DNA from: Heterotrichella gracilis
Taxonomy: Eukaryota; Sar; Xanthophyceae; Tribonematales; Xanthonemataceae
DNA: 23,864 nucleotides
Assembly: GCA_032358255.1 (NCBI GenBank)
Contig: JAULBX010029113.1
Span: 1 to 23,864, forward strand
Reading direction: 5' to 3'
The translations under genes and the position numbers were made by a program. The notes beneath the pieces were generated by a model. That model ran no database searches. It saw nothing but the letters and a program-made list of their open reading frames with translations, and was not told the DNA's origin. Below are positions 558-23,864 of this stretch, in pieces (positions within the stretch are counted from its first letter, which is position 1; each line of letters begins with the position of its first letter).

Positions 558-701
558 TAGACGATGTGAACAACTCTTTCGGGTTTGCCTATGGCACCAG
601 CTTCAGCGGGGCCAAGGCCCTGCAGTTGCCATTTTGGGTGGTGGCGATGGGGTATGCTGGCAGCAGTGCTCATCAACTGCCTGGGACCAACAGATGGCCA
701 G
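558..701 (+). CDS. Possible upstream exon of the mosaic gene
   Basis: An open stretch follows a CAG acceptor at 555-557, begins with codons for DDVNNSFGFAYGTSF, and ends at a good CAG|GTAATC donor after 701. It could encode part of a peptidase prodomain, but I see no clear I29 (inhibitor) motif. Its end phase (1) does not match the phase-0 start of the exon at 919. A later acceptor such as 812, 833 or 890 would restore the frame. The first coding exon may also lie outside the window. Confidence 0.25.
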
Positions 702-918
702 GTAATCCAAACCCCAGCAACCCACACAGGTTCTCCCTTTGCAGTCCACCACACAATGTGACCATCTTGTCCAACACCTTTGCTCTTCCCACCCACACTC
801 CACCTTTGCAGTCCTCCATACCACGCGTGCAGCTGCCATCCACCTAGTACTGGATGTATTTAGTTTGTATCCTCAACGTATGCCAGCAGAGTGTCACCAA
901 CCCCTTTGTCCCCTGCAG

Positions 919-2068
919 AGTTCCAGCGGGTTCTTTGGCCTGGTTCTCCCTCTGGATGCCAACGTGAAAACGCCTTTCAGATACATGGCCACTTTTCCCG
1001 GCAGCAATGCCAGCTGGAGCGATGCATTGCCTGCAGCTGCAACCATACGAGACCAAAACCAGGTGAGTGTCAACCACTCCCTGTCTGCCGTTCACCCAGT
1101 CCAGCTGTTGCACCTGATGACAGTGCATGTTTGCCTGTGCAGTGTGGTGCCTGCTGGGCAATGGGGGCTGTCACTGCAGTGGGGTACCACCTGGCCATAG
1201 CTAGCGCCAACGCCAGCGTTCCCCAGCTGAGTGTGCGACAGGTGCGGAATATGTGCTCATGTCCAGCACTCTGTTGCCACATACCTTCCAGCAAGGGTTA
1301 GTGGCAAACCCATGCATACATGCCGGACCCTGCCATACATCCTGTCACTCCACCACGCCTCCCCAGGTGCTTGACTGCAACCGCCAGTACACCCCTTGCG
1401 GTGGTGGCTGGAGCCTGTCCGCTTACACATATGCAGCCAGTACCGGGCTGGTTCCCGAGAGTGCCTACGCCTATGACAGCGCCACAGCGGCCACCTGCAA
1501 GCAAGCCACCATCCAGTCGCAGGCGCAGGCGCGGCAGGTGCACAAGACTGTGGGCTACGAGCGGGTGCCAGCCAACAACGAGACCGCACTCATGCAGGCT
1601 GTGTTCAGCCAGCCTGTAGCGGTGACAGTGAAGGCGGACTTCAGCGCGTTCAACAGCTACCCAAGCAGCGGCTGGCTGTTTGACGGGCCGTGCAGCACCG
1701 GGTGAGGCCGGGGGGGGGTCGAAGTCCAATGGCTATGTGGGCTGCAGACAAGTAGCGCTTGCAAGGGTGCAAATGAACTAATGCTGAAATGCTCCCAGTG
1801 TGTTCAATCCTTGCACTTTGGTCCCTAAACCCTAATCCGTAAACCCTAAACAGTGGATGACCTCCCCTCCCCCGCAGTTTCACGCACGTGGTTGTTGCCG
1901 TTGGCTACAACATCTTCCCCAATGGTACTGCCTACTGGGTGCTGCAGAACTCATGGGGCAGCGGCTGGGGCCTCGGCGGGATGATGCGCTTCAAGATGGG
2001 GTCAAACCTGTGCAGCATTGCGGCGCTGGCCTTCTACCCAACAGGCCTGTTCCAGCCGGTCCCCGCTG
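919..2068 (+). CDS. Exons encoding C1A papain-like cysteine peptidase domain 1
   Basis: Four exons encode a full papain-type catalytic domain. The oxyanion Gln is Q46 in RDQNQ, the nucleophile is C52 in CGACWAM, the general base is H196 in FTHVVVAVGY, and the orienting Asn is N217 in YWVLQNSWGSGWG. Family cysteine motifs VLDC, PCGGGW and NLCSIAALAFYP are also present. All catalytic residues are intact, so activity is plausible (inference). The intron at 1063-1142 falls just before the CGACW motif in phase 0, exactly as in peptidase domain 2. The exon at 1367 opens at VLDC, where domain 2 has no intron. An inhibitory prodomain is not visible in the resolved exons. The end of the fourth exon is provisional. 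Confidence 0.9.
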
Positions 2069-5000
2069 GTGCGCACCGCTGCGCACTGCAGGGCTGCACT
2101 TCATCCAAGTTGTGAACCATGCCACAAGCGATTCGATGGTGCATACTGTTACGAGGCCATGCCCCAGTCCGGTCATGCACACAGCTGCAAGCTGCATGTG
2201 TCATCCTCCTGGAATGCACCATGCAGTACTTCTCCTGCACACTTCCAACCTGGCATCGCCCTGTTGCAGTTCCCCAGGCGGCAGCCCTCGCCACGCCCGA
2301 CTACACCGCCCGCTTTGTGTGCCCACCTGGCGCCTACATCACGCAGTGGACCACATGCGCCATGTCCTGCCGGGCTACATCGCCAGGTGGCGCCTCCTCA
2401 CTGGTCCGCATCATCAAGAACGTGGGCGCCACCTGCAGCGACGCCAACTCCACCGGCACCGCGCTTGACCTCACCAGTGACAGGCCATTCACATGGTTCC
2501 CGCTGGACATGGGGGAGGTGCAGCTGCAGTGCGACGTGGTGCGCACGCAGTGCGATGACCTGTCAGCAGGCCTTGACACAGGCGACAACCCCTTCCCTGT
2601 GACAGCGTCAGACCCTAAAGGGTTCAGCGCTGTGCGAGCAACCACTGCGCCTGTGTGCACTGGCCCCTCCTGCACCAGCTCGGCCAGGTTCATATCAAAC
2701 CTGACGCTGCTTTCGTCCGGCAGCGGGGCCGCAATGTGTCCCGGGGATCACAAGGTGGTTGGGTTTGAGGTTGGCATCATCAACGGGGATCTGGGCTGGC
2801 TGGGGCCATGGGACCCGGCACTGTACTGCGACAAACCCTTCTCAGGTAGGCATGCGGGTGGTGGTGGTGGTATTGAACCACATGGGGCGCATGCATGCTA
2901 TGTCACTCAATGAACCATCTTCCACCGGCAATCCCATGAACCCCGTCCACAATCCACACAGTGGTTTGCCTACCCTCAAGAACCATCGCTAGATGCGCAT
3001 TTGGGTGGTGGTGCTGCGTGACGCCATGTGAGGCATTCTGCGCATGTCCAATGTCCTCAATGAAAGATATCAAATGGTTCAGAACCATCCAGACCACTTC
3101 CTGCATACAATTGTGGGGAACAGTTCCCGTCCTTGATAGATGCGGGGTGGCCAAACAGCCAATAATTTCCTGATCGTTACTTATTTGAATCCCCAATCCC
3201 CACATCGCACCAGTCCCCAATTGCATGAAGCAATGTGGAGATCGGCACTGCAGCTCAGTTCTTGTTAGCATGCCCAGCTGGAGCCACGTGTGATGCTGCA
3301 GGTCCAATCATTGAAGGCACCCAGACGCCTGACCTTAACTTCAGCACTCCTGTCCCTGACCCTGAGCGCACCAACCTCACCAATGTGGGCGGGGTGTGCG
3401 GGTTCAGGCGGCCATGCAGGGGACGCACAGGCTACAACAACAATGCTGGCAGCGGGGGCTTCTTCCCATACGCAAGTGTGGTGGTACCAGCTGCTAAGGA
3501 CTATTCAGCCTTTCTGCCAGCGCCTGTGCGAAACCAGGAATCGGTAAGGATCTCGGTAGCTATGTTGCATGCAAACATGTTGCATCCGTAAAACATTTGC
3601 ACTGGCATATATGTGAGGCGGCATGCATCATTTCACAGTGAACCACAAAGCACGCAATCTAAATGCTGTAATCTGTCCTGCATTTGGGCTTGCAGTACCC
3701 GGACATTCATGTTTGAGCCCAGACGTGAAATGCATGCATGGCGGCAATTGCGGATGTACGCGCTTTTCATTGCGGCAGATGGGGTTCACATTGGGGCTGA
3801 TATGCTCCCACCACTGCGCTGGGGCTAGTATATTACTCGTGGCATGCAACAAAAGCATGCGATGAGGGGATTGCCTGCAAGGTGCCTGCTTTGCATGCCT
3901 AGACACACCAGCCAGGTGCAGTGCATGGGTGCAAACCTGAGGTGGACAATGGTTCATGCTGCTGAGGGCATGTACAAACCTGTCTTTCGTCCGTTTGCAG
4001 TGTGCTGCCTGCTGGGCGTTTGCGGCAGTGTCAGCGGTTGAGGCGCAGCTGTACATGACTCGCCAGGACCTGACGCGCAGCCCGTTGTCGGTGCAGCAGG
4101 TACTGGACTGCGCTGCAGTCAATGTCACAAACAGGCAAGTAATGCTGTACCTGTTGCAACCCTCACAACCTAATATAGGTGCGATCAGCTCCACCTGGTG
4201 ATTTTGATGGTAAAGCATGATTGTAATTGTACTGTGCCCATGGCCCCAGGTGCGCTGGTGGCTACCCGCCCGACGCCATGACCTACATGATGGCCGACGG
4301 GGTAGCGCTGGACTCTGATTACCCTTACTTAGGGTCTAGCAGCAACGGCGGCTGCCGCATAGATCTGCAGGCAGTGGCTCGCCAGGTGCAGGTGCAGTCG
4401 GTGATCATGGTGCCAACAGGAGAGGACAACCTGGCCAAGGTGGTTGACTCTGGGCTTTCCTGCTTCTTTCCTTTGGTGCTGGTCATGCTGTGTCTGCAAA
4501 TGCCATCACTGCAAAGACAGCCAAGTGGCATGGGCCCACTACTCCACACACAAGTGCTTGGCACTGCAGTGCAAGCGTGGCTGCAGTGATAGAATGCCTA
4601 CTTGCAGAAAGTAATTACTAACGTATGCCCCCTCCCCGCTCCCCCGTTCCTCGCAGGCATTCATTGGAGGTGGCCCTGTGGTGATTGTGCTGCGCCTCAA
4701 CCTGAGTGACCCCGACCTCCAGGAGTATGGCGGGGGACTGTACAACGGCTCATGCGATGGCGACTTCACCCATGCACTGCTGCTGACGGGCATGAGCGCC
4801 GCCACCTGGACCGCGCGCAACTCGTGGGGTCCTGACTGGGGCGCAGGCGGCTACATCCAGCTGCCCAGGGGGGTCAACTTCTGCGGCATGGCGGAGCAGG
4901 CGTTTCTGCCAGGTGGGGGGGCAAGAGAGTGGTATTTCGGGCGCATTTGGTGATCAATGCCATTGTGACCAGCAAGGATTAGTACCGTTGTTACAGGAAT

Positions 5001-8000
5001 CACCTTGCACCGGTTTGCAATTTGCAGGCAATGCGGCTGTGGACCTTGTTGACCAGACCACCATGAGGACAGCTGCCAAGGTTGGGGTGCTGAGGGACAC
5101 AACCCCAGCTACAGACCCCTGTGAAGCGGCGGGTGTGCTTTGTGATATGGGATATGTTACCTCACTGTAAGTGCAACAACTGGTGGCCATATATGTTGCA
5201 AACACATAGAATCACAAGTTACTGGGGATTGCGGGTAAGTGTAACTGCAACTGCATGTCACTGACTGTGGTTGCCCAGATATGCAAGAGGTGTTACTCTA
5301 CACCAATCTGCTTGTGCACGTGGCATAAATGTTGTGACCCTGTGGTAGCTTAGATGCACATGCACCTGTCTGTCCCCTATTGTATCTTGAAAACAACAGG
5401 GGACTGTAAATATTGCAGTATAGTCCCCGTGAAACAACTATACCTCCTCTCCTTTGCACCCACTTATCATCCTCCCCCTTGTCAGGGACATCTCCTGCTG
5501 GGATGGCACCAGCGCCTTCCCCTCATGCGGGACCCAGTTTGACCTGCTGGCCCTGGCGCCATTCACGCGCCTCAAGACCCTCACAATCACACACGGCTTC
5601 ACGTACGCAAGCGCAGACCAGGAGGACACATGGTGCTCGAATGCTGCCTTCAGGGCCTTGGAAACGTTGACGCTCGTCAATTTCTATGGTGCGTGCTGGT
5701 GCAAGACATGTGGGACCAAGTCACTTGATGCCTTTAGCTGACCAGCGCTGCAAAGCCTGCCTTTGCTGTCATTTACATGTAGCTGCTACACTCGGTGAGC
5801 AACTGAGCATGTATTGCCTGCATCAGGTTTCGCATGTTATCGTGTGCCAGGCTGTATCCACCTGTCACATTGCCTCCTGTCACCCTATCAGTATGAGGTG
5901 GTACCCATACCAATGCATGTGCCTGCGCAGGTCCCTTGCCCTGGTGCTGGGGCAATCGCCTGCGGGAGCTGACCATCGTGCTGGACCGCACCCTCAAGCC
6001 GCTTCCAGTGGTGTCATGCTCATGTAAGTGGAGCCGCCTCTAGGCTCATGCATTTATTGAAAACAGCTCTTTCAACACGCCTGGTCAAGGACAGGCTGTG
6101 TAGATATTTATGTTTTTATTTTTATTTTGAAAAAATAGCTCATATCACCATTTCCCTCCTCGTATGCCCATCTACACTCTCAAGCTGCTGCCAGTGGTGC
6201 CATGCGCATGTGAATGATGCGCAACCCAGACACATGCATCCACAGCAAAAACGCATACTGTCACCACGTCCCTCCCCGTATGCGCATTCATGCTTCTAAG
6301 CTGCAGACGTTGTGCTGGTGTGGCTGGTAAATGTCCAACCTGTTCCACATTTTTCTTGGCAATTTTGAGCATGTATTTGTGGCGCAGATTCGCTGCTTGA
6401 CGCATCGGGACTTGCAAGGGTTGGCAACTACAACAGCCTGCAGACGTTTGTCGTCAAGGGGGATACCATCACCACCCCATGCCCCAGCACTGTGTGCGCA
6501 TCCGGATGTAAGTAGTGCTGGGGCAGTTGGCTCTGTTTATTCAATAAACAGAGCCAACTTCCCCAATTTGGCAGGGTAGTTACTACTTTCTCTTTATTCG
6601 TTGGGCATTCTGGCGCCACCCACTAACCAGCTTAGTCTATAAAATACCAACATTTTCCGACGAACCACTGCAGGTGCCGCCAGCAAGCCCGTGTACCCCT
6701 TCATGCGCCCACCACCCTGGTGGGGCACCCCCGCTGGTCGCCCAGGCGGCTCCAACCCCAGCTTCCAAACCCTGGTCACCCTAGACATGCGCCTACATCC
6801 CTACCTGCTGGGAGAGTTCCCGCTTGCCTGGGCCCAACCTACCTCCTTCCCAAAGCTTTCCACCATGTACGTGCTCCCTCTTGAGTGGTGATAGTGCTGG
6901 GTTTAGTTCGTGGGTACTGTGGTGTAGCCTGCTGGTTCCTGTTGACTGCATGTACATAATGCATACTATAATCACATTTCTACAGTGCAAGGGTGATTGC
7001 ATCCCATCTGAGGCAGACCTGTGGTTGTAAGTGTAGATGGTCCCTGGCCCAAAACGACCCAAAATCGTCCAACCGAACAATGTCGAATCCCCGATCCCCA
7101 CATGCACCAGTGCCCATGCTACACCCTTGTCGATCAGGAGTGGTAGTGATATACAACAAGCACGTCCCCACAGCCACTTAAATGTGGTTGATGTTCGCAG
7201 GAAGTTGCCCAGCACAGTGCTGCCAGGCTGCTGGACCAACCAGACGCTGACATTTCCCATCACATCATACATGGTGACAGTGGAGGGGTCGGCTGCCGCC
7301 CAAGTCTACAGCCCCGACAGCTGTGGTATGTGACAGGATTGCATTTGGGGCACAAAACAGAACAATACGCATGTACCAGGAATTAACACGTGCATGGCTT
7401 GTGAACAGCAGTGGGTGTGGTGACCATGGCTGATGCACCCTGATTGGGGACACCCTTGTCACTGCTAGTGCAAATGCCACTTCCTGCGCCTGGTTGGTGT
7501 GTGAGGGTACAAAGGCAATGCGGACTTGTGATCATTAATCTGTTGTTTCATTCTGCGCACCGTCCTTGGAAATGCCTGGGATACCATGATGCCATTGGGG
7601 TTGTAGCCATGAGTCATGGTGGGACAGGTTGTACAAGGGAGGTGTGTGCCGCAAGGCGTGCAGGGGTCAGTGTTCATCTTGCAGTGGCTGTTCTGCAACA
7701 TGCCGCATGGCATGTATTAAATTGATTAATTGGTGACATTAAGCATGGTTCCCTGCGCAGGCGGCATCACGTCGGTGGATCTTGGCTTCCCCCTGACCCC
7801 TAGCGTGTGGCTGTCTACCCGCAACACCACCTTCATCTGCCCTGCACCATACGCCATCACAAGCTGGCAGGTACGCTGCAGCCCTTCGACGCTCGCCAAT
7901 GGGTCATTATTGCAATCTATTCACATGGCAGCAGCACCTGGTATATCTCCGTCCTGTTTGTGCTTGCAGCTTGCGGCTCCCTTTTTCCCCAGAAATTTCT

Positions 8001-11000
8001 CTGGTTTGCTTCCTCCCTGCTGCATGTGGTGTCGTCCCTTGTAACTATTTATTAGTATTGTCTTTTATCATTATTAAGTACCTTTTGTTTCTGTATTATT
8101 ATTATGTAATAAACGACTGGCTTTCATTTCTCAGGTCGGCCAGGCGTCCTGCACACCGCCCTACACCACGTTCTTCCAAGTGCTGGCGCTGACTGCCACG
8201 TGTGGGAATGGGGAGACAATCACGTGGGACCCCGGGCACACACAGTGTTTTAGTGAGGTGAGCCAGAACTACAGCGCAAGATGCAGGGATTGTGGCGAGA
8301 CATTCCCGCATGGGATCAGGGACATGACATGAACTGCTGCGCCACCCAAGCAGTGTTCCATGTTTGTGTAACAAGTGTAACGAAGAGATTTTGTTTCTGC
8401 AAGACAATATCCTGAGTAACCGGATGGTTTTGTTTAAACTTTAACGCTCCACGGTTCTTCTGCCGCAGACCTCGCAGTACGCCAATGTTGCTGGCAGCGC
8501 CGAGAGCAGGTTCAGTGCCACGCTGTACCGACTCACGCAGTCAGATGTCATGGCGCAGATAGGCTTCCCAGCGCTGCCCAGCCAGGATTTTACACGCAAC
8601 GTCAGGTGGGTGCACTTGCCACGCTCAGAGCTGTTGTGACATGTCACGGTTATTGCACAAGATGGGACGATGCATGCCCAATTTGACTCCGGGCATGCAG
8701 GCTGGCGCCTTACACCCAAATCCCTTGAACAGGTACCAATGCTCTGCAAGCTGGACACGGTCTGGACCAGGACCCTCCTTCCAGCAGAGGTATATGAAAC
8801 ATATGAAATTGCTCATACTTCTGCTTGAAGCCTGCCCTGCCATGTTGCTCCTGCAGGAGCGCCGCGTGCCCTGCAGATACGCTTGCAGTGGGGTTTGCGG
8901 TGGCCCTGGCCTCGGGCGCAGACGTGTATGGCGTGCAGTACATGTCCATCAAGTGCGCACATGCGTCCGCAACAGGCAAGTACACCTGTAGCAATGGCAC
9001 TACCGAATCGGGGGAGAGGGGGAAAGGGGGTGAAAACCATGTGATTTGGACCCCTTCCGATTGCCAGTCATCATTTTGACAAATCAACCCTGTCCTGAAA
9101 AAACGGGACCAAAGCTATGCAAGCCTGTCATTCCATTGGTCTATTGGTGAAGGGCATCTACCTCCTGTTCGCCATGCCCCCCTACCACATCACGTGACTG
9201 AGACATTCCACAATCGCATGCGCTGATGGCCATCCTGTCACTTGTAGGCTACTTTCAACCCCCTCCGCCGCCTGTTCCCCCGGGCACTCCATCGCCTCCC
9301 TTCCCCATGCCACCACCACCACCAAGCCCCCAGCCGCTCACAACCCTAGGCAAGTCCCTGCTCATTCAAGGAGAATGATTGCTCCTTTATAAGCACCACT
9401 TACTGTCAGCTCTGCACTTTGCGTCCAGTTTTATATGCATACAAGGGTTCAGTCTTCAAACACACTGTTTGGGAAGGATTTGCCAGATTTAGAGCAAAGC
9501 TCGTGCACTGGGTTGCTCAGTGCGGCAATTTGTTCTTGTTGCCGGTGGCTGACAGTAAGCACCAACCTGCTCCCCCTGCTTCTGACTAAAATCTACCCCC
9601 TTGCTGGCCATGCAGTCCTTGAGCCTCTGTCCACCTACGGCTGCTTGTGCATGCATTTCCCCGCTGTTAGACGAGGGTTTCAGAGCAGGCGCATGCACTG
9701 GATTGCTTAGTGAGGCAGCCTGTGGTTGTGGCTGACAGCCTGTCCCCTGCTTCTGATGAAACATACCCCGTGCTGGCCATGCAGTTCCAACTGAGCCTCT
9801 GTCCAACTACGGCTGCTTCTACTGCCAACCCCTTAAGACAGATCCGGTGCTGGTTACCTGCTCTGATGGTTCCCTGGTGTCGGAGATCACTGTGTATGAG
9901 CCATTTGGGGGCGGCCCACTGGCGGTCTCTGCAGGGGTTGGGAATGTGGGCTTGTCGTGCCTGTCACCAACCACTGGGAAGGTGGACAGTGTGGTTTTCA
10001 CAAATGCTGGTATGTGGTTTAGACTCGTAAGTCGTGAACTGCATGCTGGTTAATGCAAATTGAATGGTGAGTGGATGAATGGATAGATGAAGACCACGAT
10101 GAAATGCAGGATGGTTAAAACTTGTAGAATATAAAAGCTGAAAAGATTCATTGGTTTGTTGAGTTGCTTGCTGAGACGTGTCAGGCGCACAGCTCTAGTA
10201 ATGCACACTGTAGGATAAAACGCACCATATAGTGAATCACGGATGTAGAGTAGCGGAGTTTCTCTAGGCACCGTACCTGCAGTGTCTGCTTCCATACCAT
10301 TGCTCCCCTTGCTGTGCAGGGCCCGTTGGCGCCGCCTGGCTGTTCCACCCGCCACCTGGCCTCCTGTACTTCACCTCTTTCACCTCCATGCGCACCGCAC
10401 CCTACCCGGGCCTAGCCAGGTTCATGGGACTGGACGCTGGTCCCGGGGATGACCTCACGCCATTCAGCTGTCCCCACGGGAGCTATGCATCAGCCATGAT
10501 TGGCCGCCCGCTGGTCTTTCCTGGCCCGCTGTACTACCAAACTGGCATCATAGACACCTTCCAGGTGGTGTGCGAGCAGCAGGCAGCAGGTGGGTGGTGG
10601 GGGTGGGTGGGTCGGAAGGAGGAAATGAGGGGTTCTCTGAAGTCAATACACAATGTGAGTGGGTGATTTGGGGGGAGGAGGGGAGAGGGGAGAGGGTTTA
10701 GAGAAGTCACCACACAGTGCGCTAGTTGTTGCACAGTTGCACATGGTGTGTAGCACTACCCTCCAAATGTAAGTGTAACATCCTGATTTGCACGATTACA
10801 AGGCAACAGTGGAGGCATGTAGGCTGTTGCCAGCGCTTGCTTACAGTGTGAATGGCAGATCAGGTTGTATGTTTTTTATTGGCAAGTGACAGCCTCTGAC
10901 TGTGTAATGGCAACTTGGCACCCCTGCAGGTTTCAACCCATGTGATGTTGGCTACACCTTTAATAGCACGCAGCAGCAGTGTGTGCGAGATGCCGTGAAC

Positions 11001-14000
11001 GGTACGTGACCCATGAACACTGAACCCTGAAACCCTAAAGCAGTGAGTGCGACAGCATGGCACTGCAAAACGACAACCTTACTGTTGAATAGGACACGAT
11101 GACTCAACACTGTGACTATATCATTAGGGTTTATCGTTAGGGTTTATGACGATGGCACTGCTCCCTGCTATATCCCGCCTGTTACCAAGTGCCGTGCACT
11201 GGTTTAGGGCATCAATATGTATTCATCGTACGTGACCTTCTGCAGCCCCACCAAGCCCACGCCGCCCTCCACCCCTTCCTGCCAGCCCCTCGCCCCCGCG
11301 CTCTCCCCCCCTGCCCCCCTCCCCTCCCCCCTCCCCTCCAGCGCCCCCCTGGTCATGCTCCAACAGCACACCAGGCAGCGTGTTCACACCTGTCACCAAC
11401 AGCATAGTGTGGACGTTGCCATGGAATTCCAGCTGGGTGGATTGCTGCAGGTGAGACGCTGGGGTGGTTTTGCACCTGAGACTCCCTGCACGTACCAAAG
11501 GAGCAATGTTACAAAGCTTTTTCCATTGTTAACCAAGGTTTGACCCCTCACGCCCATCAGCAGGCTTGTACTACATTTGAAATGGTTGGGTCGCCAGTTG
11601 CCACCCTAAACCCTGATTTAGGGTTTGAACCCCTAAACAGTACAAACCACTTGGCATTCTGCTGCAGCAAGTGCGCCACCTCTGCTGGGTGCCACGATTG
11701 GATGTACCTGGGTACCGCAGACCCATACACCCCTGCCCGCTGCCACTTCATGCAAGGGACATACACAAACAGTGTATCCAAGAATCTGCTGCACTACACC
11801 GGCGCAGTCATTGGTAGGTGGTACTTACAAGATTACAACATTATATCACAGTCACATTCAGGGAGCCAACCCGGGCTCACGAGACTGTTGGGGGTGCTTC
11901 ATGACGTCACCCCGCTTACTGAAAAGTCTGTGAATTAATGGGGCCACATTGGCCCCACATCTACTACCAAAAAAGCTACACAAGTTTCTGGAAATGCCCA
12001 TCATAGCAGCTATGAAATATTTCCCTGTGTTTCTTTTTGAATTCATGCTATCTCTGCTATTATTCATGCCACTGGGCTTGTGGCGTGCGCGTGTGGACAA
12101 AGCCCTGCTGTAGCATTTTGTGGGTTCCAGCTTTGCTTAGCTTTTTATTCTGCTCCTGTGTGTGCAGGCGGTATCCCTTACTCCCCGCCCCCCTCCCCCC
12201 TGCCTCCTTCGCCCCGCCCACCACCCACCCCTCCACCTAGACCACCCAGGCCACCGGCGCCACCAGGCTCATCCACCGGTACGTGCATTCAATGCAACTA
12301 CTAACGTTAGTCGGTTACCTAGTTACATGCTGAAACGAATGTAATCAGCAACCAGCCCTTGTCCTGGCACTGCTTATACCAGGGATTTTTACAGGAATTT
12401 TGAGACAGTCAAGAGGGAGCCAACCCGGGCTCACTAGACTGTTGGAGTTGTACCATCTCTGCATCAGCAGGTATCACAAGCCACTTCTGGTAGCTCCATC
12501 CGTATCCTGGGCACACATCTGACTGCTTTGCACACTCCGCCCGCTCAACACTCAGTTTCCAGGTAGCCTGCTTGCCCGGCTCCCTCCCCTACACACTTTC
12601 TTTGCTACGCCTCACATCCAACGTTGGGTACCCCTCATTGAGAAGCGTTTAAGGGTTTAGGGCTTAGAGTTTAGGCGGTCACAGCAACAGGCTCAATCGG
12701 CGTAAGCACATGCGTGCGGTGTGGTGCTGCAGGCAGGCACCAAACAAATATGGTAGAGGACATAGTAGACAGGAGAGCATTGCCATCCTCTCTGCTAATT
12801 CCTCTTCCTTAACCAACAGGTTTGTTCAAGGACAGGCTGCGTAGCTATTTATTTATTTATTTTGGTGTTGCAGGCCTGTACACATGGACCCAATCAGCCA
12901 GCTACGTGGTGGGTGGGTTTGAGTTTGGGCGGCTTAACACATACATTTGCCTGGTGAAGCGGGATGGCTACAACAAACCCGGCAAGCTGGTGGGCACCAC
13001 ATGCTCCATAGGGGTGGATGGCCAGCAGCTGATGTACTGGCAGGGAACCTACATGTACCTGTCCTCCAGCCTGGCGCCTGTGTGGACCCTCTCCATGCCA
13101 GACAGCCCTGTGTTTGCGCCAGAGGGGGCTGATGCTGTGTGCCAGGCAGGGGTGGGGGGCGCGGTGTTTACTGGGTGGACGGACGGCGTGGCCTGCCATG
13201 TGGCAGACAGCCTCCAGGAGAAGGTGCTGTCGGATTTCAGCTGGCTGAGCTTTGACGGTAAGCAAAGAAGTCTAAATTCTTGTAAGTACGTGCAGTTCTA
13301 GCTTAGAGGCCAGATTAGCATGCCTGGGTATGTCTCATCCCAGACCTAATTCTACAATGTTTTGTACTCGATGATGCCTTTTTTTATTCTACTGCTACCA
13401 CCCTTGTGCACGTGTGACCACAATGTTTGCCTGGCTAACGCTTACCTGGACAAATTCAACGGGTCGGCAATTAAATCCACAGCCACTGCAACTCATGCTA
13501 CCCCTTGTGGCTGCAGCCCCCCCTCCACCCCCACCAAAGCCTGCGCCACCACCACCTGCCCGACCCCCCCCCCAACCACCGCCATTGCCGCCGCTACCCC
13601 CTGCGCCCCCAGCAGGTACCTAAACCCTTGAACTAAACCCTAAATAGCCACCCCAGCAGGTACAGACACTACAGGCAGTGTGTGTCAATACACATGTGTG
13701 AACCCTGTTTCTAGACCCCTGATAGAGCTGCAGGACTAGACTAGCTGCGTAATTAGTTATATGTTTGGTATAAGGTCACCTTGGCATATGTTTATCAGCA
13801 TGTACCCATGGGTGTGCTGATTCTTGTTCCGCCACAACATCCACATACGATGCCAGTGTACCGTTTGCCATCTCCTATCAGCATCACTGCTAGAAGTCCA
13901 ACTGCGTTTTGTGCGGTGCAGGAAGCGTATACCGCTGGGATCCCCAATGGGCGGAGCTAATCCCAGGGGGCGCTGAGGCCAATGGAGACGCATTCTACAT

Positions 14001-16674
14001 CTGCCAGCCAGCGACAAATGACCCAACCATCGCACTCCCTGGCAAGCTTGCATTTGGCACCTGCTACGTTGGGGTCAATGGCGAGGAGCAGGGCTTTGAG
14101 GCCGATGCAACCATGTACCTGGTTTCAGCCTTCACCCTTGTGTGGACCTCATCAAGGCCCCTCTTCCCCGTGTATGGTGATGGCGGCACAGGGGCGGTGT
14201 GCCGTGCAGCCTACCAGGGGGGAACATATCCAGGGTGGACAGAGGGGGTGCAGTGCCACATCAGCTATGGCGGGTTTGAAGTGAAGCTTGGTGGCTTCCA
14301 GTGGCTCAGCTTTGCAGGTGGGGAACCACATTCTTGGCCCAATTCATCACATAGTATGAAATTTCAGCTGTGTACTTGTCGATTTTGTCACAGGGCACAC
14401 ACCAGACAGCACGCTTCACAGACAGCAAGTGTGGGTGCCAGGCGGGTCTGACCTGACACTACGCATGCCTGGTGCTTGCAAAACCCAAAATCGTGCTGGG
14501 TCCCATGTTTCCAGCCATTGCTGGCCTGTGCATTGCGCTAGATGCTCTACAGACTGATTGCATGCTGCGTGTGTGTGTGTGCTGCAGGGGCCCCGCCCTC
14601 ACCTCCATCCAGCCCTGCACTGGAGTTTGGTGAGTCCCAACTTGCATTGACAAGACAGAGCCCGTACATCAACCCTGGATCCATTAATGGTGTTAATCAT
14701 GGCTCCATAAACATTGCCTTGCCTCACTATGCATGCATCACACATCACAGCAGCAAGGGCAGGCTAGCGCACTGGCAAGAAGGCTGGCCCTGCACAATGC
14801 CCACCTTCCCATCGGATGTTGTTCATCATGCATAGCTAGCCACCTCCTGACGCACACCCAAATCCAGAGCGCTGCTTCCCTGCACACCAAACCCTAAACC
14901 CTAAACCCTAATGCCAGCCTATCTGCCAATCCCCAGCCCTAATCGCAGTCCCAGGACCGACTGATAGAAAACCCTTTGCCCTGTGCAGTGCCCAAGGCCC
15001 CCATCGGGTCCTGTGATTCATGCGTGGGTAGCCAGCTCCTCACGCGCACCTGCCCACCTGGGGCGCTGGTGTCTGGGTTCAAGCTGTGGGGCTCCGCTGT
15101 GGCTGACGTGGCCAACACATCCAATACCCTTGGTGGGGTAATGCTGCTGTGCAGCGATGCCTCCGAGGTCATGTTCCCAATCACATCCACTGGTGCGTGG
15201 GGTGGCGTGCGCAGCAGTTTAGGGTTTATGGAACCGGCAAACTAGGTATTGTTTTTGAAATGGGGTAATCTTACACTGGATTGTTATTCATTAGGATTAT
15301 TGTTGATAGAATCATGTCGATCAAGACAAAGGCCCAAAGACACATTGTGAAGACAAGCTTGACACAAGCAAGGCACCTGTTTAGGGTTTAAGGTTTACGG
15401 TGCAACGTTTTCTATGAAGCGCTCTTCTGCTGTGCAGACAAGCTCGACACCAGCATACCACCTGTCGCCTTCCAGCCACCACCAGCCTTCAAAATCTTCT
15501 GGTCATTTGCCGCCCGAGCGCCTGCCGGGGCACAAACCCTAGAGGGTTTTCTAGGGTTCAAGGGGTCGAGCCAGCTGACCACATTCCAGTGCCCCTCCAA
15601 TTCGTTCATCAAGGGCATCAGGGCCAGGAGCATTGAGGTGAATGGCGGGGCAAGGCTGACCAGCTTCCAAGCGGCATGCCAATCTCAAGCGGCAGGTGAG
15701 CGCTGTGTCCACTGTGGAAAGAATATTCAAACAAAGCATGATGCGCACGCACGCTTGCTGTCCACTACCTCCCGGTGGGTTTACGGAAACCCTGAACCCT
15801 AAACCCACAGCCACGTCATTTGTGTCTGGATTAATACCATGTCGGGGTGGCCCTAAACCAAACTTGAATCAAGAAGGTAAATATTATTTACAGGCTGAAG
15901 AATAAGGGAACAATTAAGGATATTGATTGCTTTCCAGCAGTACAGTCAGATGAATATACAATCAGCAATCAGCATCAGCAGTTTGGTGCACAGCTAAGAT
16001 TGACATGCCATGTGCAATTACCTCCCACAGGCTTCAACCCTTGCTCCGATGGGTACGTTGTGCGCTATGCAAGCAGTGGCGCGCCGTCATGCACTGTGGC
16101 ACCACCGCCGCTTCCAGCCAGGCCGCCACCGTCACCACCACCACCATCACCCTCTCCACGGAAGTCACCGCCACCTCCCTTGCTGCCACTACACCAGCCG
16201 CCACCAGCACGCAGGGCCCCACCACCACGCAGATCCACCACCCCATCACCATCTCACTCGCCACCACCACCCAGACCCCTGGGAAAGAAGCCACCGCCAC
16301 CCAGGCTATCATCACCACCACCACCACGCAGGCAGCCACCATCACTCAAGCAGCCACCACCACCACCACGCAGGCAGCCACCACCACGCAAGGCGCCACC
16401 ACCACACAGGCAGCCACCACCACTCAAGCAGTCACCACCACCGCCATGCAGGCGGCAACCACCACTTAAGCAGCCACCACCACCACCACGTAGGTCACCA
16501 CCACCCAGACCATCATCACGACCACCACCACACAGGGCGCCACCGCCGCGGGTGCCACGCCCAGTGCCGCCATTGCCACGTGCACCACCACCACCACGCC
16601 CACCGCCCCAACCACCAAGATCACCAGCACGACCACCACCGCCACGCTCATCTCCACCACCACCACCACCATAA
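919..16674 (+). CDS. Giant mosaic extracellular-type protein with two papain-like peptidase domains, LRR, DM9, PAN and Pro-rich modules (5' end unresolved)
   Basis: I rebuilt 34 exons from splice signals and phase: 919-1062, 1143-1241, 1367-1701, 1878-2068, 2270-2845, 3254-3543, 4001-4134, 4250-4439, 4657-4912, 5028-5166, 5486-5688, 5931-6023, 6388-6507, 6674-6866, 7201-7325, 7761-7870, 8135-8257, 8469-8605, 8733-8789, 8857-8975, 9248-9349, 9785-10009, 10320-10589, 10930-11001, 11246-11450, 11668-11813, 12168-12278, 12874-13257, 13517-13615, 13922-14317, 14588-14629, 14989-15192, 15438-15695, 16031-16674. All junctions keep frame, the total is 6,792 nt and the stop is TAA. Residue numbers in the module entries count from base 919. 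The modules are typical of secreted, cysteine-rich proteins, and the proline-rich linkers recall algal wall glycoproteins. Location and role are inferred; no signal peptide was identified because the start is not resolved. The least certain junction is 2068/2270, where 2058/2278 also keeps frame. It could be more than one transcript, but unbroken phase and the lack of an internal stop argue for one gene. Confidence 0.82.
1825..1852. repeat. Interstitial telomere-like motif in intron
   Basis: Several CCCTAAA-type units, one imperfect (ccgtaaa), lie in the intron 1702-1877. They match the plant/green-alga telomere repeat TTTAGGG. Confidence 0.75.
2270..2845 (+). CDS. Single-exon CP-type module between the two peptidase domains
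   Basis: One 576-nt exon, phase 1 at both ends, encodes about 192 residues. It has two copies of a pattern seen later in the protein: CP, then one or two residues, a hydrophobic strand, and a closing hydrophobic-x-C. These are FVCPPGAYITQW leading to VGATC, and AMCPGDHKVVGFEVG leading to PALYCD. A middle part has its own cysteines (VQLQCDVV, RTQCDDL). The layout resembles beta-prism proteins of the vitelline membrane outer layer (VMO-I) type, but this is only pattern similarity. The acceptor used here is TGTTGCAG at 2262-2269; CCCAG at 2273-2277 is the alternative. Confidence 0.8.
2846..3253 (+). other. Intron 5 of the mosaic gene
   Basis: A 408-nt intron with CAG|GTAGGC donor and CACTGCAG acceptor. 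It contains short imperfect direct repeats, such as a gggtggtggtg core at 2854-2866 and again at 3003-3013. No other feature is seen. Confidence 0.7.
3254..4912 (+). CDS. Exons encoding C1A papain-like cysteine peptidase domain 2
   Basis: Four exons form a second intact C1A domain. The catalytic residues are Q543 in VRNQES, C549 in CAACWAF, H692 in FTHALLLTGM and N708 in TARNSWGPDWG. VLDC, CAGGYPPDAMTY, SDYPYLG and NFCGMAEQAF match the family. Its first exon (3254-3543) begins with about 70 residues of a cysteine-containing lead (LLACPAGATC, GGVCGFRRPCRG), which is not a recognisable prodomain. The loop between the active-site His and Asn is shorter than in domain 1. The second intron, 4135-4249, has a GC donor (AG|GCAAGT). 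Apart from the phase-0 intron before the active-site Cys motif, its intron positions differ from domain 1. The whole unit is bounded by phase-1 introns. Confidence 0.9.
3544..4000 (+). other. Intron 6 of the mosaic gene
   Basis: A 457-nt intron that splits the motif NQES|CAACW just before the second peptidase's active-site cysteine. It is dotted with gcatgc palindromes. There is no coding signal. Confidence 0.75.
4135..4249 (+). other. GC-AG intron (first of three)
   Basis: The donor is ACAG|GCAAGT and the acceptor is GCCCCAG. Using GC keeps the frame and joins VNVTN-R to CAGGYPP, which is the expected peptidase sequence. No GT at this point gives a continuous frame. Confidence 0.8.
5028..7325 (+). 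CDS. Exons encoding a plant-type leucine-rich repeat block
   Basis: Six exons (5028-5166, 5486-5688, 5931-6023, 6388-6507, 6674-6866, 7201-7325) encode about 291 residues. The start resembles the cysteine-paired LRR N-cap of plant receptors: DPCEAAGVLCDMGYVTSLDIS. Degenerate LRR strands follow: FTRLKTLTIT, FRALETLTLVNF, RLRELTIVLD, YNSLQTFVVKG, FQTLVTLDM and FPKLSTMKL. Cysteines at both ends suggest a capped, secreted LRR. The repeats are irregular and would be missed by strict LRR models. Entry and exit phases are both 1. The likely role is protein or ligand binding (inference from the fold). Confidence 0.78.
5167..5485 (+). other. Intron 10 of the mosaic gene
   Basis: A 319-nt intron with a strong GTAAGT donor, splitting the LRR N-cap after VTSL. 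Nothing else is recognisable in it. Confidence 0.7.
6024..6387 (+). other. Intron 12 with an exon-edge echo and an AT-rich dispersed repeat
   Basis: It contains a diverged copy (6179-6216) of the end of the preceding exon (5993-6030). It also holds a segment at 6084-6129 (tcaaggacaggctgtgtag, then a T/A-rich run) that recurs at 12825-12863. Confidence 0.75.
6520..6564. repeat. Long intronic inverted repeat (hairpin)
   Basis: The 16-bp perfect arms gttggctctgtttatt (6526-6541) and its complement (6543-6558) are separated by one base. A further GGGG/CCCC pairing lies outside them, past one A-T pair and one mismatch. The hairpin starts 12 bases after the GTAAGT donor at 6508. Confidence 0.88.
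6867..7200 (+). other. Intron 14 of the mosaic gene
   Basis: A 334-nt intron between a GTACGT donor and a TTCGCAG acceptor. I see no repeat or coding signal in it. Confidence 0.65.
7326..7760 (+). other. Intron 15 of the mosaic gene
   Basis: A 435-nt intron (GTATGT donor, CTGCGCAG acceptor). No recognisable feature is found inside. Confidence 0.65.
7761..8975 (+). CDS. Exons encoding CP-type repeats after the LRR block
   Basis: Five exons (7761-7870, 8135-8257, 8469-8605, 8733-8789, 8857-8975) encode about 182 residues. Two CP units are visible: FICPAPYAITSWQ running to LTATCGN, and SAACPADTLAVGFAVALASG running to YMSIKC. The middle exon (TSQYANVAGSAESRF) has no recognisable family. The 57-nt exon 8733-8789 is the second-smallest in the gene and is supported by phase and by splice sites on both sides. 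The last exon ends at a GC donor (ACAG|GCAAGT). The block enters and leaves in phase 1. Confidence 0.75.
8976..9247 (+). other. GC-AG intron (second of three)
   Basis: Donor ACAG|GCAAGT and acceptor CTTGTAG. Phase 1 on both sides is kept only if the GC donor is used. Confidence 0.75.
9248..9349 (+). CDS. Proline-rich linker exon 1
   Basis: A 102-nt symmetric 1-1 exon encodes a linker of about 34 residues, more than half proline (GYFQPPPPPVPPGTPSPP and onward). It resembles hydroxyproline-rich spacers of algal wall and matrix proteins. It is followed by a GC-AG intron (CTAG|GCAAGT at 9350). It separates CP-type modules. Confidence 0.75.
   Translation, partial: ATFNPLRRLFPRALHRLPSPCHHHHQAPSRSQP
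9350..9784 (+). other. GC-AG intron (third of three) containing a tandem duplication
   Basis: Donor CTAG|GCAAGT, acceptor CCATGCAG. About 9492-9650 is a diverged copy of about 9682-9820. The second copy runs into the real exon, so a decayed acceptor-plus-exon start (CATGCAG|TCCTTGAGCCTCTG) lies inside the intron. Confidence 0.75.
9785..10009 (+). CDS. CP-type module exon (CSDG variant)
   Basis: A 225-nt symmetric 1-1 exon. It opens with cysteines (NYGCFYCQP), then has LVTCSDGSLVSEITVYEP, a Gly-rich stretch, and a closing VGLSC. The proline of the usual CP start is replaced (CSDG). The 5' edge of this exon and its upstream intron are present in a diverged second copy at 9602-9650. Confidence 0.75.
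10010..10319 (+). other. Intron 22 of the mosaic gene
   Basis: A 310-nt AT-richer intron (GTATGT donor, CTGTGCAG acceptor). Apart from tgaatgg/tgg-type short repeats near 10060-10090, nothing is recognised. Confidence 0.6.
10320..11001 (+). CDS. CP-type module plus GFNPC cysteine module
   Basis: Two symmetric 1-1 exons. Exon 10320-10589 (about 90 residues) has FSCPHGSYASAMIGRPLVF and closes at TFQVVCEQQAAG. Exon 10930-11001 (24 residues) reads GFNPCDVGYTFNSTQQQC, a short two-cysteine motif resembling C-x-x-GY modules that often precede wall linkers. The same order (CP unit, QAAGFNPC, proline-rich segment) recurs at 15438-16674, so this looks like an internally duplicated cassette. Confidence 0.8.
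10590..10929 (+). other. Intron 23 of the mosaic gene
   Basis: A 340-nt intron with a purine-rich first third (ggtgggtgg, gggaggagggg) and two similar segments around 10632 and 10695 (gttct/ttagagaagtca, then cacaca/cacagtg). The acceptor is CCCTGCAG. Confidence 0.6.
11246..11813 (+). CDS. Proline-rich linker plus PAN/Apple-like module
   Basis: Exon 11246-11450 starts with about 30 residues rich in Pro and Ser (APPSPRRPPPLPASPSPP), then changes to WSCSNSTPGSVF and ends at WVDCC. Exon 11668-11813 continues SKCATSAGCHDWMYLG, ARCHFMQG. The pattern CC-x-x-C, then C-x-x-W, then C-x-hydrophobic is typical of PAN/Apple-like domains, which bind proteins or carbohydrates in secreted proteins. The internal intron is phase 2, but the outer boundaries are phase 1. 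The PAN call rests on cysteine spacing only. Confidence 0.75.
11861..11892. repeat. 32-bp intronic repeat, copy 1
   Basis: gggagccaacccgggctcac followed by gagactgttggg. It matches 12415-12446 with about two differences. The pair flanks the proline-rich exon 12168-12278. Confidence 0.85.
12168..12278 (+). CDS. Proline-rich linker exon 2
   Basis: A 111-nt symmetric 1-1 exon of about 37 residues (GGIPYSPPPSPLPPSPRPPP and onward), with Ser-Pro repeats and arginines. The introns on both sides share a 32-bp near-identical repeat (11861-11892 and 12415-12446). Confidence 0.8.
12279..12873 (+). other. Intron 27 of the mosaic gene (longest)
   Basis: A 595-nt intron. It holds copy 2 of the 32-bp repeat (12415-12446), telomere-like bases around 12650-12675 and the 12825-12863 copy of the AT-rich segment also found at 6084. 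Possible cryptic acceptors exist, but no extra exon is supported. Confidence 0.7.
12874..13257 (+). CDS. DM9-type (DUF3421-like) lectin module 1
   Basis: A 384-nt symmetric 1-1 exon of about 128 residues with two DM9-like repeats. The first has VVGGFEFGRLNTYICLVKRD, PGKLVGTTC and VGVDGQQ-type strands (here SIGVDGQQ). The second has VFAPEGADAVCQAG, GWTDGVACHV and DFSWLSFD. The matching signs are an aromatic-G-G start, YxC, PGK, a TC-x-x-G-V-x-G turn and a WL/YL end. Animal DM9 proteins include mannose-binding lectins, so glycan binding is a reasonable guess. It is paralogous to 13922-14317 along its whole length. Confidence 0.78.
13517..13615 (+). CDS. Proline-rich linker exon 3
   Basis: A 99-nt symmetric 1-1 exon of about 33 residues, mostly proline (APPPPPPKPAPPPPARPPP and onward), joining the two DM9 modules. 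Its last bases and its splice donor (CCCCAGCAG|GTAC) are repeated 44 bp downstream at 13651, giving a second possible donor. Confidence 0.78.
13616..13921 (+). other. Intron 29 with repeated donor edge
   Basis: A 306-nt intron. Telomere-like bases lie at 13622-13646, and a copy of the exon end plus donor (ccccagcaggtac) starts at 13651. Confidence 0.7.
13922..14317 (+). CDS. DM9-type (DUF3421-like) lectin module 2
   Basis: A 396-nt symmetric 1-1 exon of about 132 residues. It is the clearer DM9 copy: YRWDPQWAELIPGGAEANGD, AFYICQP, ALPGKLAFGTCYVGVNGEEQ, TMYLV. The second repeat has FPVYGDGGTGAVCRAAYQGG, YPGWTEGVQCHISYGGFEV and FQWLSFA. Lengths and landmarks match the module at 12874-13257. 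Family knowledge links DM9 to mannose-type glycan recognition; binding here is inference. Confidence 0.85.
14588..14629 (+). CDS. Pro/Ser micro-exon
   Basis: A 42-nt symmetric 1-1 exon encodes 14 residues (GAPPSPPSSPALEF). It lies between a CTGCAG acceptor and a G|GTGAGT donor. Skipping it would keep the frame, so it may be optional. It is too short for standard gene finders. Confidence 0.65.
14630..14988 (+). other. Intron 31 with telomere-like array
   Basis: A 359-nt intron. Positions 14888-14911 hold three uninterrupted CCCTAA(A) units, the longest perfect run in the window. Confidence 0.8.
14989..15695 (+). CDS. Two CP-type modules
   Basis: Two symmetric 1-1 exons. Exon 14989-15192 has GSCDSCVG, RTCPPGALVSGFKLWG, and closes at GGVMLLCSDA. 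Its CPPG-x-x-V-x-GF pattern is the best match to VMO-I-like sequences. Exon 15438-15695 has FKIFWSFAARAPAG, TTFQCPSNSFIKGIRARSI, and closes at TSFQAACQSQAAG. Telomere-like bases (CCCTAGAGGGTTTTCTAGGG, 15537-15556) are translated within the second exon (TLEGFLGF). The 5' edge of the second exon is echoed in the upstream intron at 15351-15381. Confidence 0.78.
15193..15437 (+). other. Intron 32 with exon-edge echo
   Basis: Telomere-like bases are at about 15220-15233 and 15379-15392. 15351-15381 is a diverged copy of 15436-15466, the start of the next exon. Confidence 0.75.
15696..16030 (+). other. Intron 33 of the mosaic gene
   Basis: A 335-nt intron with telomere-like bases at 15787-15808 (ctgaaccctaaaccc) and cagcaatcagcatcagcag near 15960. 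No coding signal. Confidence 0.65.
16031..16674 (+). CDS. Terminal exon: GFNPC cysteine module and long basic proline-rich tail
   Basis: The exon follows CCTCCCACAG and opens GFNPCSDGYVVRY with a closing SC, paralogous to exon 10930-11001. It then encodes about 190 residues dominated by Pro with Arg, Lys, Ser, Gln and Ala (units such as PPPPPRR, KQPPPPP, RQPPP), up to a TAA at 16672-16674. There is no hydrophobic end, so no GPI or membrane anchor is seen. The composition suggests an extensin- or pherophorin-like tail that may be hydroxylated and glycosylated and could contact acidic wall polysaccharide through its basic charge (inference). The other two frames give Thr-rich and His-rich translations that are by-products of the repeat. 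Confidence 0.85.
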
Positions 16675-17282: not shown

Positions 17283-19368
17283 TCAAGCAACGCTGGCATT
17301 GGTGGGAGCCACTGCTGCTGCCTCTGCCCCTGCCCGCTGCGCCGCCTGCACCATCCCCGCAAACACGCCCCCTGCACGCATGCGCAGCTCCCCAGGTGGG
17401 CCGACCTCCGCCACCCGCCCAGCAGACAGCACCAGAACCTGCAAGCACGAAGCAAAAATTATGTTGAAAAATCAGCGCTGCTACGTAGCCCACAGCGAGG
17501 GTTAACCTGATCAGAAATAGGCACCATGTTAAGTCAAAGGTTGGGCACCCGCTACCCTCAGGATTGGTCGGCTATGCCTACGCATGTCGCCATGTTCAAC
17601 TTAATCAACTGCAACATCTTCGAATGCAATGGAATCATTGCAGTCATGCTGCAGCTGACCATTGGGAATTTACTTCATTTTGTTCGTTTTGTTGCATTCA
17701 AAAACATCTGCAAAATGTGGCATAATGATTCCCCTGAGCGTATAGGCAACAGTGCCACAGGCTGGGCAGGGACAAAGCAACATGATACCAAGGCATCCAA
17801 CAGCTGACTCCATTCTACGACCTTTGCAAATTCAGTTTGCAGACAATACTCAAGGGCGCCCCATACCTGGTCACAATCCATGACTGTATCCAGCCTGTGG
17901 GCGATGATGAGCAGCGTGCGGGCGGGCCTGTCCTGGCCACCCCCCACACACTCCCGCAGCGCCTGCTGTATGAGGGCGTCCGTGGCTCGGTCTACATTGG
18001 CGGTGGCCTCATCCAGGGCAAGAATGGAGGCGTGCTGGAGCAGCGCCCTGCAGGGGAAACACAGGAGGCGGTTTCCACTCGGCAAAGCCTGGAATGTGTA
18101 TGATTGCAACCATGGCATGGGGCAGCACGCACTATGGTATACCATTGTTCATATTGTGTGTTGGCAGTAAATCGTCAAAAGTCGAACAACATTGATCCCT
18201 GTGGCACCCGTCCCTGCAATGCGCATGATGCGCGCCATGCGCCACCCCAGGAATGAACATCTTGCCCCACCCCACCCCACCCTGCCTCACCTGGCCAGGC
18301 AAAACAGTTGTCGCTGCCCCACACTCAGGTTGTCACCGCACTCTGCCATGCCTGCATCCAGCCCGCCCGCACCCGCCACCGCCCCCTCCAGCCGCACGCT
18401 GCGCACCACCTCCCACAGCGCCGCGTCCCCGTGCACGCCCCAGGGATCCAGGTTGCTGCGCAGGCTGCCGCTGAAAAGCACGGGGTCCTGTGGGTGGCGG
18501 AAGGCGTGTGATGTGAGGTTGAGCAGCGAGAGCATTGTTACGAGTACAGACAGCTCGGCTTTGCAAACAAGGGACCATTATCCTGGGGCTCACGAATACC
18601 GCGCAAAAGTCACTTTTGAGCATTGGATGTGGTGATGCAGCAGTCTGCATGCATGCATCTACACGCATGTGGCAGGAGCAGGTGGCAGGTGGCAGGAGCC
18701 TAGGCGTGCAATTTTATGTTCTTTTACCACAATGGACCTGACAGCTTGGCATTGCGGACCGACTCCACCAAACACCACCTGGGATGTTGGTTTACCCAGT
18801 CCCCAGTGTCACAGACTGGGGACACCAACATAATGGGAGCTCCCATTGCTATGCAGCAGCCCCTACCTGTGGGATGATGGCCAGCTGGTTGCGCAGTGCA
18901 TCCAGGCCGATGGACGCCGCATCCACCCCGTCTATGAGTATCCTCCCCTGGGTGACGTCGATGAGGCGGAACAGTGTGAGCATGAGCGAGGATTTGCCAG
19001 ACCCAGTCCTCCCCACGACCCCGCATGATGTACCCCCCTGCAACAGGGAAAATGTATTTTTATTCCCTGACTACTATGGCAGTCACTACTATGCAGACGC
19101 CAACCAGATTCTGGGTCAGTGCTAACCACATCTGACAGGTTAATACAAACGTGATATACAAAATCGGTACACACATATGACAGTTGAAAAAAACCATGAT
19201 TAACATGCTGGTACGGTAATTCCTCACCTTTATCCTGAAAGTGATGTCCTTGAGCACCGCTGGCAGTCCCGGGCGATACGTCGCTGTGACCCCTTCATAT
19301 GTTATCTCCCCCTTGCTGGGCCACTGGGCAGGCGGTGCGGGGGCGCCATCCTCCACAAGAGGCGGCTC
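17283..19368 (-). CDS. ABC transporter exons: complete NBD2 and C-terminus
   Basis: Five exons. Exon 19368-19228 has [19 protein letters not shown]. Exon 19037-18867 has Walker [13 protein letters not shown] (Lys about residue 730) and ends in the Q-loop IIPQ. Exon 18487-18291 has [16 protein letters not shown] and the signature LSVGQRQ. Exon 18047-17867 has Walker B ILALDEAT with the catalytic Glu, D-loop ATANVD, and H-loop [15 protein letters not shown]. The last exon, 17438-17283, reads [20 protein letters not shown] and ends in an Ala-rich tail before TGA. All ATPase motifs are intact, so this half is expected to hydrolyse ATP. Confidence 0.93.
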
Positions 19369-23810: not shown

Positions 23811-23864
23811 CTGCGCGCACAGGAATGAAATAAACAAATGAATATAAATTACCACAAAGGGGGG

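Follow-up and report, generated by a model that had tools for sequence, protein, structure and literature searches.

The window, by which we mean the whole 23,864-nucleotide stretch of DNA analysed here, carries on its plus strand one large gene of 34 exons (positions 591 to 16674) that joins two catalytically complete papain-type (C1A) peptidase domains to cysteine-rich, LRR-like, PAN-like and DM9-like modules and to proline-rich linkers. The catalytic residues of both domains are intact, the architecture occurs at four loci of the same genome, and the genes are under purifying selection. With middling confidence, we propose that the product is a secreted, wall- or matrix-docked, double-headed multi-module papain-family protease of an alga.

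Gene model and paralogous loci

The coding sequence comprises 6,798 nt including the TAA stop and encodes 2,265 residues, and the joined frame of the 34 exons contains no internal stop. GT-AG borders are present at 30 of the 33 introns and GC-AG borders at the other three, whose donors read AG followed by GCAAGT (after positions 4134, 8975, and 9349); the acceptor is AG in all cases. From N to C terminus, the protein consists of a leader, C1A domain 1, a cysteine-rich region, C1A domain 2, and an LRR-like region, followed by cysteine-rich modules, a PAN-like module, and two DM9-like modules, together with proline-rich linkers and a proline-rich tail. A previous, sequence-only reading had placed the gene start at 919, which is the start of exon 2, and thereby missed exon 1 (591 to 701), encoding a Met and a hydrophobic, signal-peptide-like leader (best 11-residue hydropathy 2.2). 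We moved the start to 591 because two paralogs, C49 and C450, have similar leaders (best 11-residue hydropathy 2.7 and 2.2, respectively); by eye, the leader exon in each resembles exon 1 of the window and has a Gln at its end, followed by GT. An in-frame TGA lies at position 567, before exon 1. The hydrophobic leader fits secretion, and the protein is apparently exported. No membrane anchor was found, the top 19-residue hydropathy beyond the first exon being 1.51. A 57-nt candidate exon (8733 to 8789) was rejected and left out of the model, as neither C49 nor C450 has it.

Whole-genome searches of the 68.5-Mb assembly identified three further, colinear loci (C49, C450, and C667). The full module order is found in C49 and C450 and part of it in C667, the first 6,095 bases of which are N and whose contig ends within the gene. 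Spliced projections free of stops gave proteins of 2,157 (C49), 2,265 (C450), and 1,371 residues (C667). Introns of the window gene recur at the identical place and phase at 28 of 33 positions in C49, 25 of 33 in C450, and 17 of 20 in C667, an agreement that is biased towards the window model because the paralog models were built by spliced alignment with the window protein as guide. For the six pairs of loci, dN/dS is 0.40, 0.345, 0.32, 0.36, 0.345, and 0.20, as computed on a gene model starting at 654; dS values above 1 are near saturation. With two queries, one running from the LRR-like region through exon 20 and the other covering exons 22 to 26, all matches listed (at least 34 and at least 15, respectively) lay on the four family contigs. 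Because the module order and most introns are common to the three other loci, stops are absent and dN/dS lies between 0.20 and 0.40, we conclude that the window gene is a member of a selected four-locus family and not a chance join. The sequence-only reading of a single large gene whose two C1A domains are both catalytically complete is borne out by the 34-exon frame and the colinear paralogs; the separate genes, stop codons, or frameshifts that it had named as contrary evidence were not seen in the genomic data, in which paralogs are colinear, introns are shared, and selection is purifying.

Phase-1 introns account for 8 of the first 20 introns of the gene and for 12 of its last 13 (Fisher p 0.0036), the pattern to be expected had the C-terminal half been built up through the shuffling of phase-1 modules. 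By eye, an intronic run of plant-type telomere-like CCCTAAA units lies at about 14888 to 14912, and single CCCTAAA units also occur in other introns of the gene. Beyond the gene, on the minus strand (17283 to 23864), lies an ABC transporter that is ABCC-like by motifs read by eye (frames at 18849 to 19070 and 18287 to 18577), interrupted by introns and truncated at the end of the window; Pfam gave nothing on four other frames of this stretch.

The two papain-type domains

Domain 1 (exons 2 to 5; 919 to 2068) carries Gln83, Cys89, His233, and Asn254 and matches Pfam Peptidase_C1 (PF00112) with 155.9 bits (E 2.1e-45). Domain 2 (exons 8 to 10; 4001 to 4912) carries Gln564, Cys570, His713, and Asn729 and matches the same family with 145.5 bits (E 3.2e-42), the curated cut-off being 20.7 bits. 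This active-site set is complete in both window domains and at every paralog position covered, the C667 sequence not covering the domain-1 Gln and Cys positions. A PDB sequence search with the C1A domains returned plant papains and cathepsins (ficin, dionain-1, FBSB, and cathepsin K), and we regard the assignment of both domains to C1A as certain, the likeness to these enzymes being one of fold family by sequence and of the full Gln-Cys-His-Asn set. Unlike them, the window protein has two unlike C1A domains per chain and a long C-terminal module array, and no I29 prodomain was seen. An I29 inhibitor prodomain is usual in C1A peptidases but does not define them; Pfam gave no I29 match at E≤1 before domain 1 or domain 2. 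The paralog alignment delimits a cysteine-rich region (exon 6) and a pre-sequence of domain 2 (exon 7) at 2270 to 3543, and within exon 7 the stretch CRGRTGYNNNAGSGGFFPY is invariant in all four paralogs. C1A was the sole catalytic domain detected, no other, M11 and S8 included, being found by a Pfam scan of protein pieces that took in the joined proline-rich linkers and tail in part.

A tree built with 13 further C1A genes from this genome separates the three domain-1 and the four domain-2 sequences into two groups, both with 100/99 support; the stems of these groups measure 1.06 and 1.26 changes per column, respectively. Both domains are thus old; the same tree gives no answer on whether domains 1 and 2 are each other's closest kin. 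Elsewhere in the genome, contig C597 has two clusters of C1A matches on its minus strand (185688 to 187269 and 193415 to 195256), about 6 kb apart and perhaps tandem C1A genes, with no match to the LRR-like or cassette regions of the family among the matches listed.

Window and C49 differ at 8 of 92 four-fold sites in exons 4 to 5 and at 235 of 423 in exons 13 to 34 (p 6e-18), against 51 of 78 and 253 of 439 for the control pair of window and C450 over the same exon sets (p 0.21). Sequence exchange thus seems to have taken place between the window gene and C49 in the protease part, in a gene-conversion-like patchwork (window 1143 to 5688) that includes introns as well.

The C-terminal modules and proline-rich linkers

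The region following domain 2 (exons 11 to 16; 5028 to 7325) is LRR-like only, and its assignment to LRR is weak. Pfam LRR models gave no match in the window or C49, and a profile of the region from the four paralogs matched six PDB sequences at E≤10, with a best E of 0.014. Five of these carry the names of plant LRR receptors (two RLK5, one HSL1, and two TMM entries), and the sixth is named only as a "protein kinase domain-containing protein". LxxLxL-type cores, a pattern chosen post hoc, number 6, 4, 5, and 6 in the four paralogs against about 0.4 in shuffles, the count being matched by 0, 5, 3, and 0 of 2000 shuffles. The region shares an N-cap-like start and these cores with plant LRR receptor ectodomains (HAESA/RLK5, HSL1, and TMM), from which it differs in its weak score and irregular repeats and in a protein where no kinase and no membrane span were found.

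A conserved cysteine-rich region (exons 17 to 20; 7761 to 8975) is kept in the paralogs and has no Pfam match. Beyond it, the sequence-only reading had overlooked a duplicated cassette of three cysteine-bearing exons, present as copy 1 in exons 22 to 24 (9785 to 11001) and as copy 2 in exons 32, 33, and the start of 34 (14989 to 16098). Compared as profiles, exons 22 and 32 give an hhalign probability of 98.7, a score reached by 0 of 50 column shuffles, and exons 23 and 33 share 29% identity; homology of exons 23/33 to exon 22 or 32 received no support (hhalign probabilities 4.1 and 4.1). Searched against the PDB, the cassette profile retrieved one unrelated chain only, and an NCBIfam scan of four protein pieces gave no match. 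Of 72 cysteine positions with an alignment in C49 as well as in C450, 66 are conserved. By eye, a sequence closely resembling the start of exon 22 lies about 170 bases upstream in the intron (about 9600 to 9830), as if duplicated.

Exons 25 to 26 (11246 to 11813) encode a proline-rich linker and a module that we call PAN-like only, with PAN_4 scores of 17.4 bits in the window, 22.1 in C49, and 25.1 in C450, all below the cut-off of 27. Two DM9-like modules follow, module a in exon 28 (12874 to 13257) and module b in exon 30 (13922 to 14317), which are 39% identical. Against the Pfam DM9 cut-off of 26.2 bits, module b scores 23.2 (E 6.8e-5), module a has no match alone, the C450 module scores 15.7, and that of C49 scores 27.2, so that one of the four family copies reaches the cut-off and DM9 is partly degenerate here. 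The paralog models contain likely intron read-through (C49 12723 to 12976, C450 relative positions 18558 to 19222, and C667 about 19401 to 19500), and for this reason C49 and C450 were counted with one DM9-like module and not two; they appear to have one each and the window two. Searching the PDB with a profile of the family's DM9-like modules returned no DM9 lectin and only two unrelated chains. By eye, the lysine of the DM9 PGK motif is kept in three of the four copies (window a, window b, and C450) and is Asn in C49. Oyster DM9 proteins are reported to bind mannose (PMC4932603 and PMC5712788). The family resembles the oyster lectins CGL1 and CgDM9CP-1 in its Pfam DM9 similarity, strongest in the C49 paralog, and differs in that its modules stand singly or are split among proline-rich linkers and that, by eye, residues of the Asp22/Lys43 mannose site seem only partly kept. 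With one of the four family copies over the Pfam cut-off, we grade the DM9 assignment as fair. Of the LRR, DM9, and PAN modules claimed in the sequence-only reading, DM9 stands in fair form, C49 passing Pfam, while PAN stays below its cut-off and LRR is weak. Further DM9-like stretches in the genome, both below 26.2 bits, are found in C649 (L038 7277 to 7831; 23.2 bits) and C167 (L039 2877 to 3389, minus strand; 24.3 bits). A genome-wide search with PF11901 yielded no match, and its controls yielded none either.

Proline-rich tracts of the SPn/PPP kind occur in five linkers and once at the C terminus, with 14 SPP-type motifs. Besides the linker preceding the PAN-like module, they were read from the joined frame in exons 21 (9248 to 9349), 27 (12168 to 12278), and 29 (13517 to 13615) and, for a short linker, from the exon model in exon 31 (14588 to 14629); the tail (16099 to 16671) bears Lys/Arg and resembles the tails of C49 and C450. 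The linkers sit at similar places in the paralogs. Algal wall proteins typically contain such tracts, and the earlier description of hydroxyproline-rich-type linkers agrees with these tracts, which are HRGP-like in sequence.

Proposed function and alternatives

We propose that the leader would direct the protein into the secretory path, where the HRGP-like linkers and tail, probably hydroxylated and glycosylated, would space the modules and may anchor the protein in the wall or matrix. Docking on glycoprotein or glycan targets could then fall to the DM9-like, PAN-like, cysteine-rich, and LRR-like modules, and the two different C1A domains would cut protein there, most likely wall glycoproteins of the alga itself. 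No I29 domain having been seen, the enzyme may be kept silent until use by short conserved pre-sequences or through oxidation of its active-site cysteine. The sequence-only reading had likewise suggested a matrix-bound protease that could dock on glycans, in wall remodelling, mating, or defence.

A role in defence or feeding, with the secreted protease docking on bacteria or fungi through pattern recognition by its DM9-, PAN-, and LRR-like modules and digesting their surface proteins, is possible, though we think it rather unlikely. It gains from the report that oyster CgDM9CP-1 is a pattern recognition receptor for microbes (PMC5712788) and from the lower constraint, by dN/dS, on the DM9 and PAN parts than on the C1A parts; however, we could not detect any sign of positive selection over whole modules, since per-exon dN/dS is below 1 throughout, with a highest finite value of 0.98 (exon 26 versus C450). 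We consider it improbable that the C1A domains are structural or binding and the protein a non-cutting adhesin or matrix component. Linkers and modules make up most of the protein length and the I29 propeptide was not seen, as such a use would allow, but the active-site residues are kept at all covered positions in the four loci and the C1A exons are among the more constrained. That two or more neighbouring genes were mis-joined, domain 2 opening its own gene in intron 7, is very improbable: an open frame from the ATG at 3623 has a hydropathy (2.31) level with the real leaders and could splice in phase to exon 8, but it has no convincing paralog counterpart (the best tblastn match, in another part of C450, spans 21 residues at E 0.041), the preceding exon 7 is conserved coding sequence in all four loci, module order and introns recur in the paralogs, and the separate second gene was rejected on the lack of conservation of this frame.

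The proposed wall- or matrix-docked protease can be set beside the Chlamydomonas wall lysins gametolysin (M11) and sporangin (S8), to which wall lysis is attributed in PMC8643629, a source whose main text does not contain the word papain. The likeness is one of possible job only, that of a secreted protease acting on the wall; the window protein is of another catalytic type and fold, with no M11 or S8 domain found. Genome matches comprised 43 to light-harvesting proteins and 3 to Peptidase_M11 (the gametolysin family). Searches with tblastn found no relatives in viral_contigs (LRR-region alignment and two short patterns; 25 stretches tested), genome_contigs (domain-2 alignment and two patterns specific to the family; 68 stretches covered), or phages (domain 2 only), which are virus and prokaryote collections and not informative on other algae. 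No description of an architecture with two C1A domains and these modules was found among the literature matches listed, most subscription journals lying outside the search, in keeping with the earlier statement that no described protein with this order is known. The four-locus family sets known domain families in an order that we found nowhere else in these searches.

As a bolder and doubtful extension, the family may represent an undescribed class of algal extracellular protease, in which two unlike cysteine-protease heads would share one wall-anchored docking scaffold and stay silent without an I29 prodomain, with one head perhaps processing or regulating the other. Such a class would add to gametolysin and sporangin a third route, of cysteine type, for lysing walls or attacking microbes, and it would mean an algal use of the DM9 lectin module. 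DM9 proteins are reported in PMC5712788 as not having been identified in the plant kingdom. The I29 prodomain not having been seen, the family raises the question of how such proteases stay inactive. In it, two papain domains that look active are joined to modules of wall type and recognition type; if the protein acts on walls, it would extend the algal wall lysins of PMC8643629 by a class of cysteine proteases, and if it acts on microbes, it would unite proteolysis and recognition in one algal protein.
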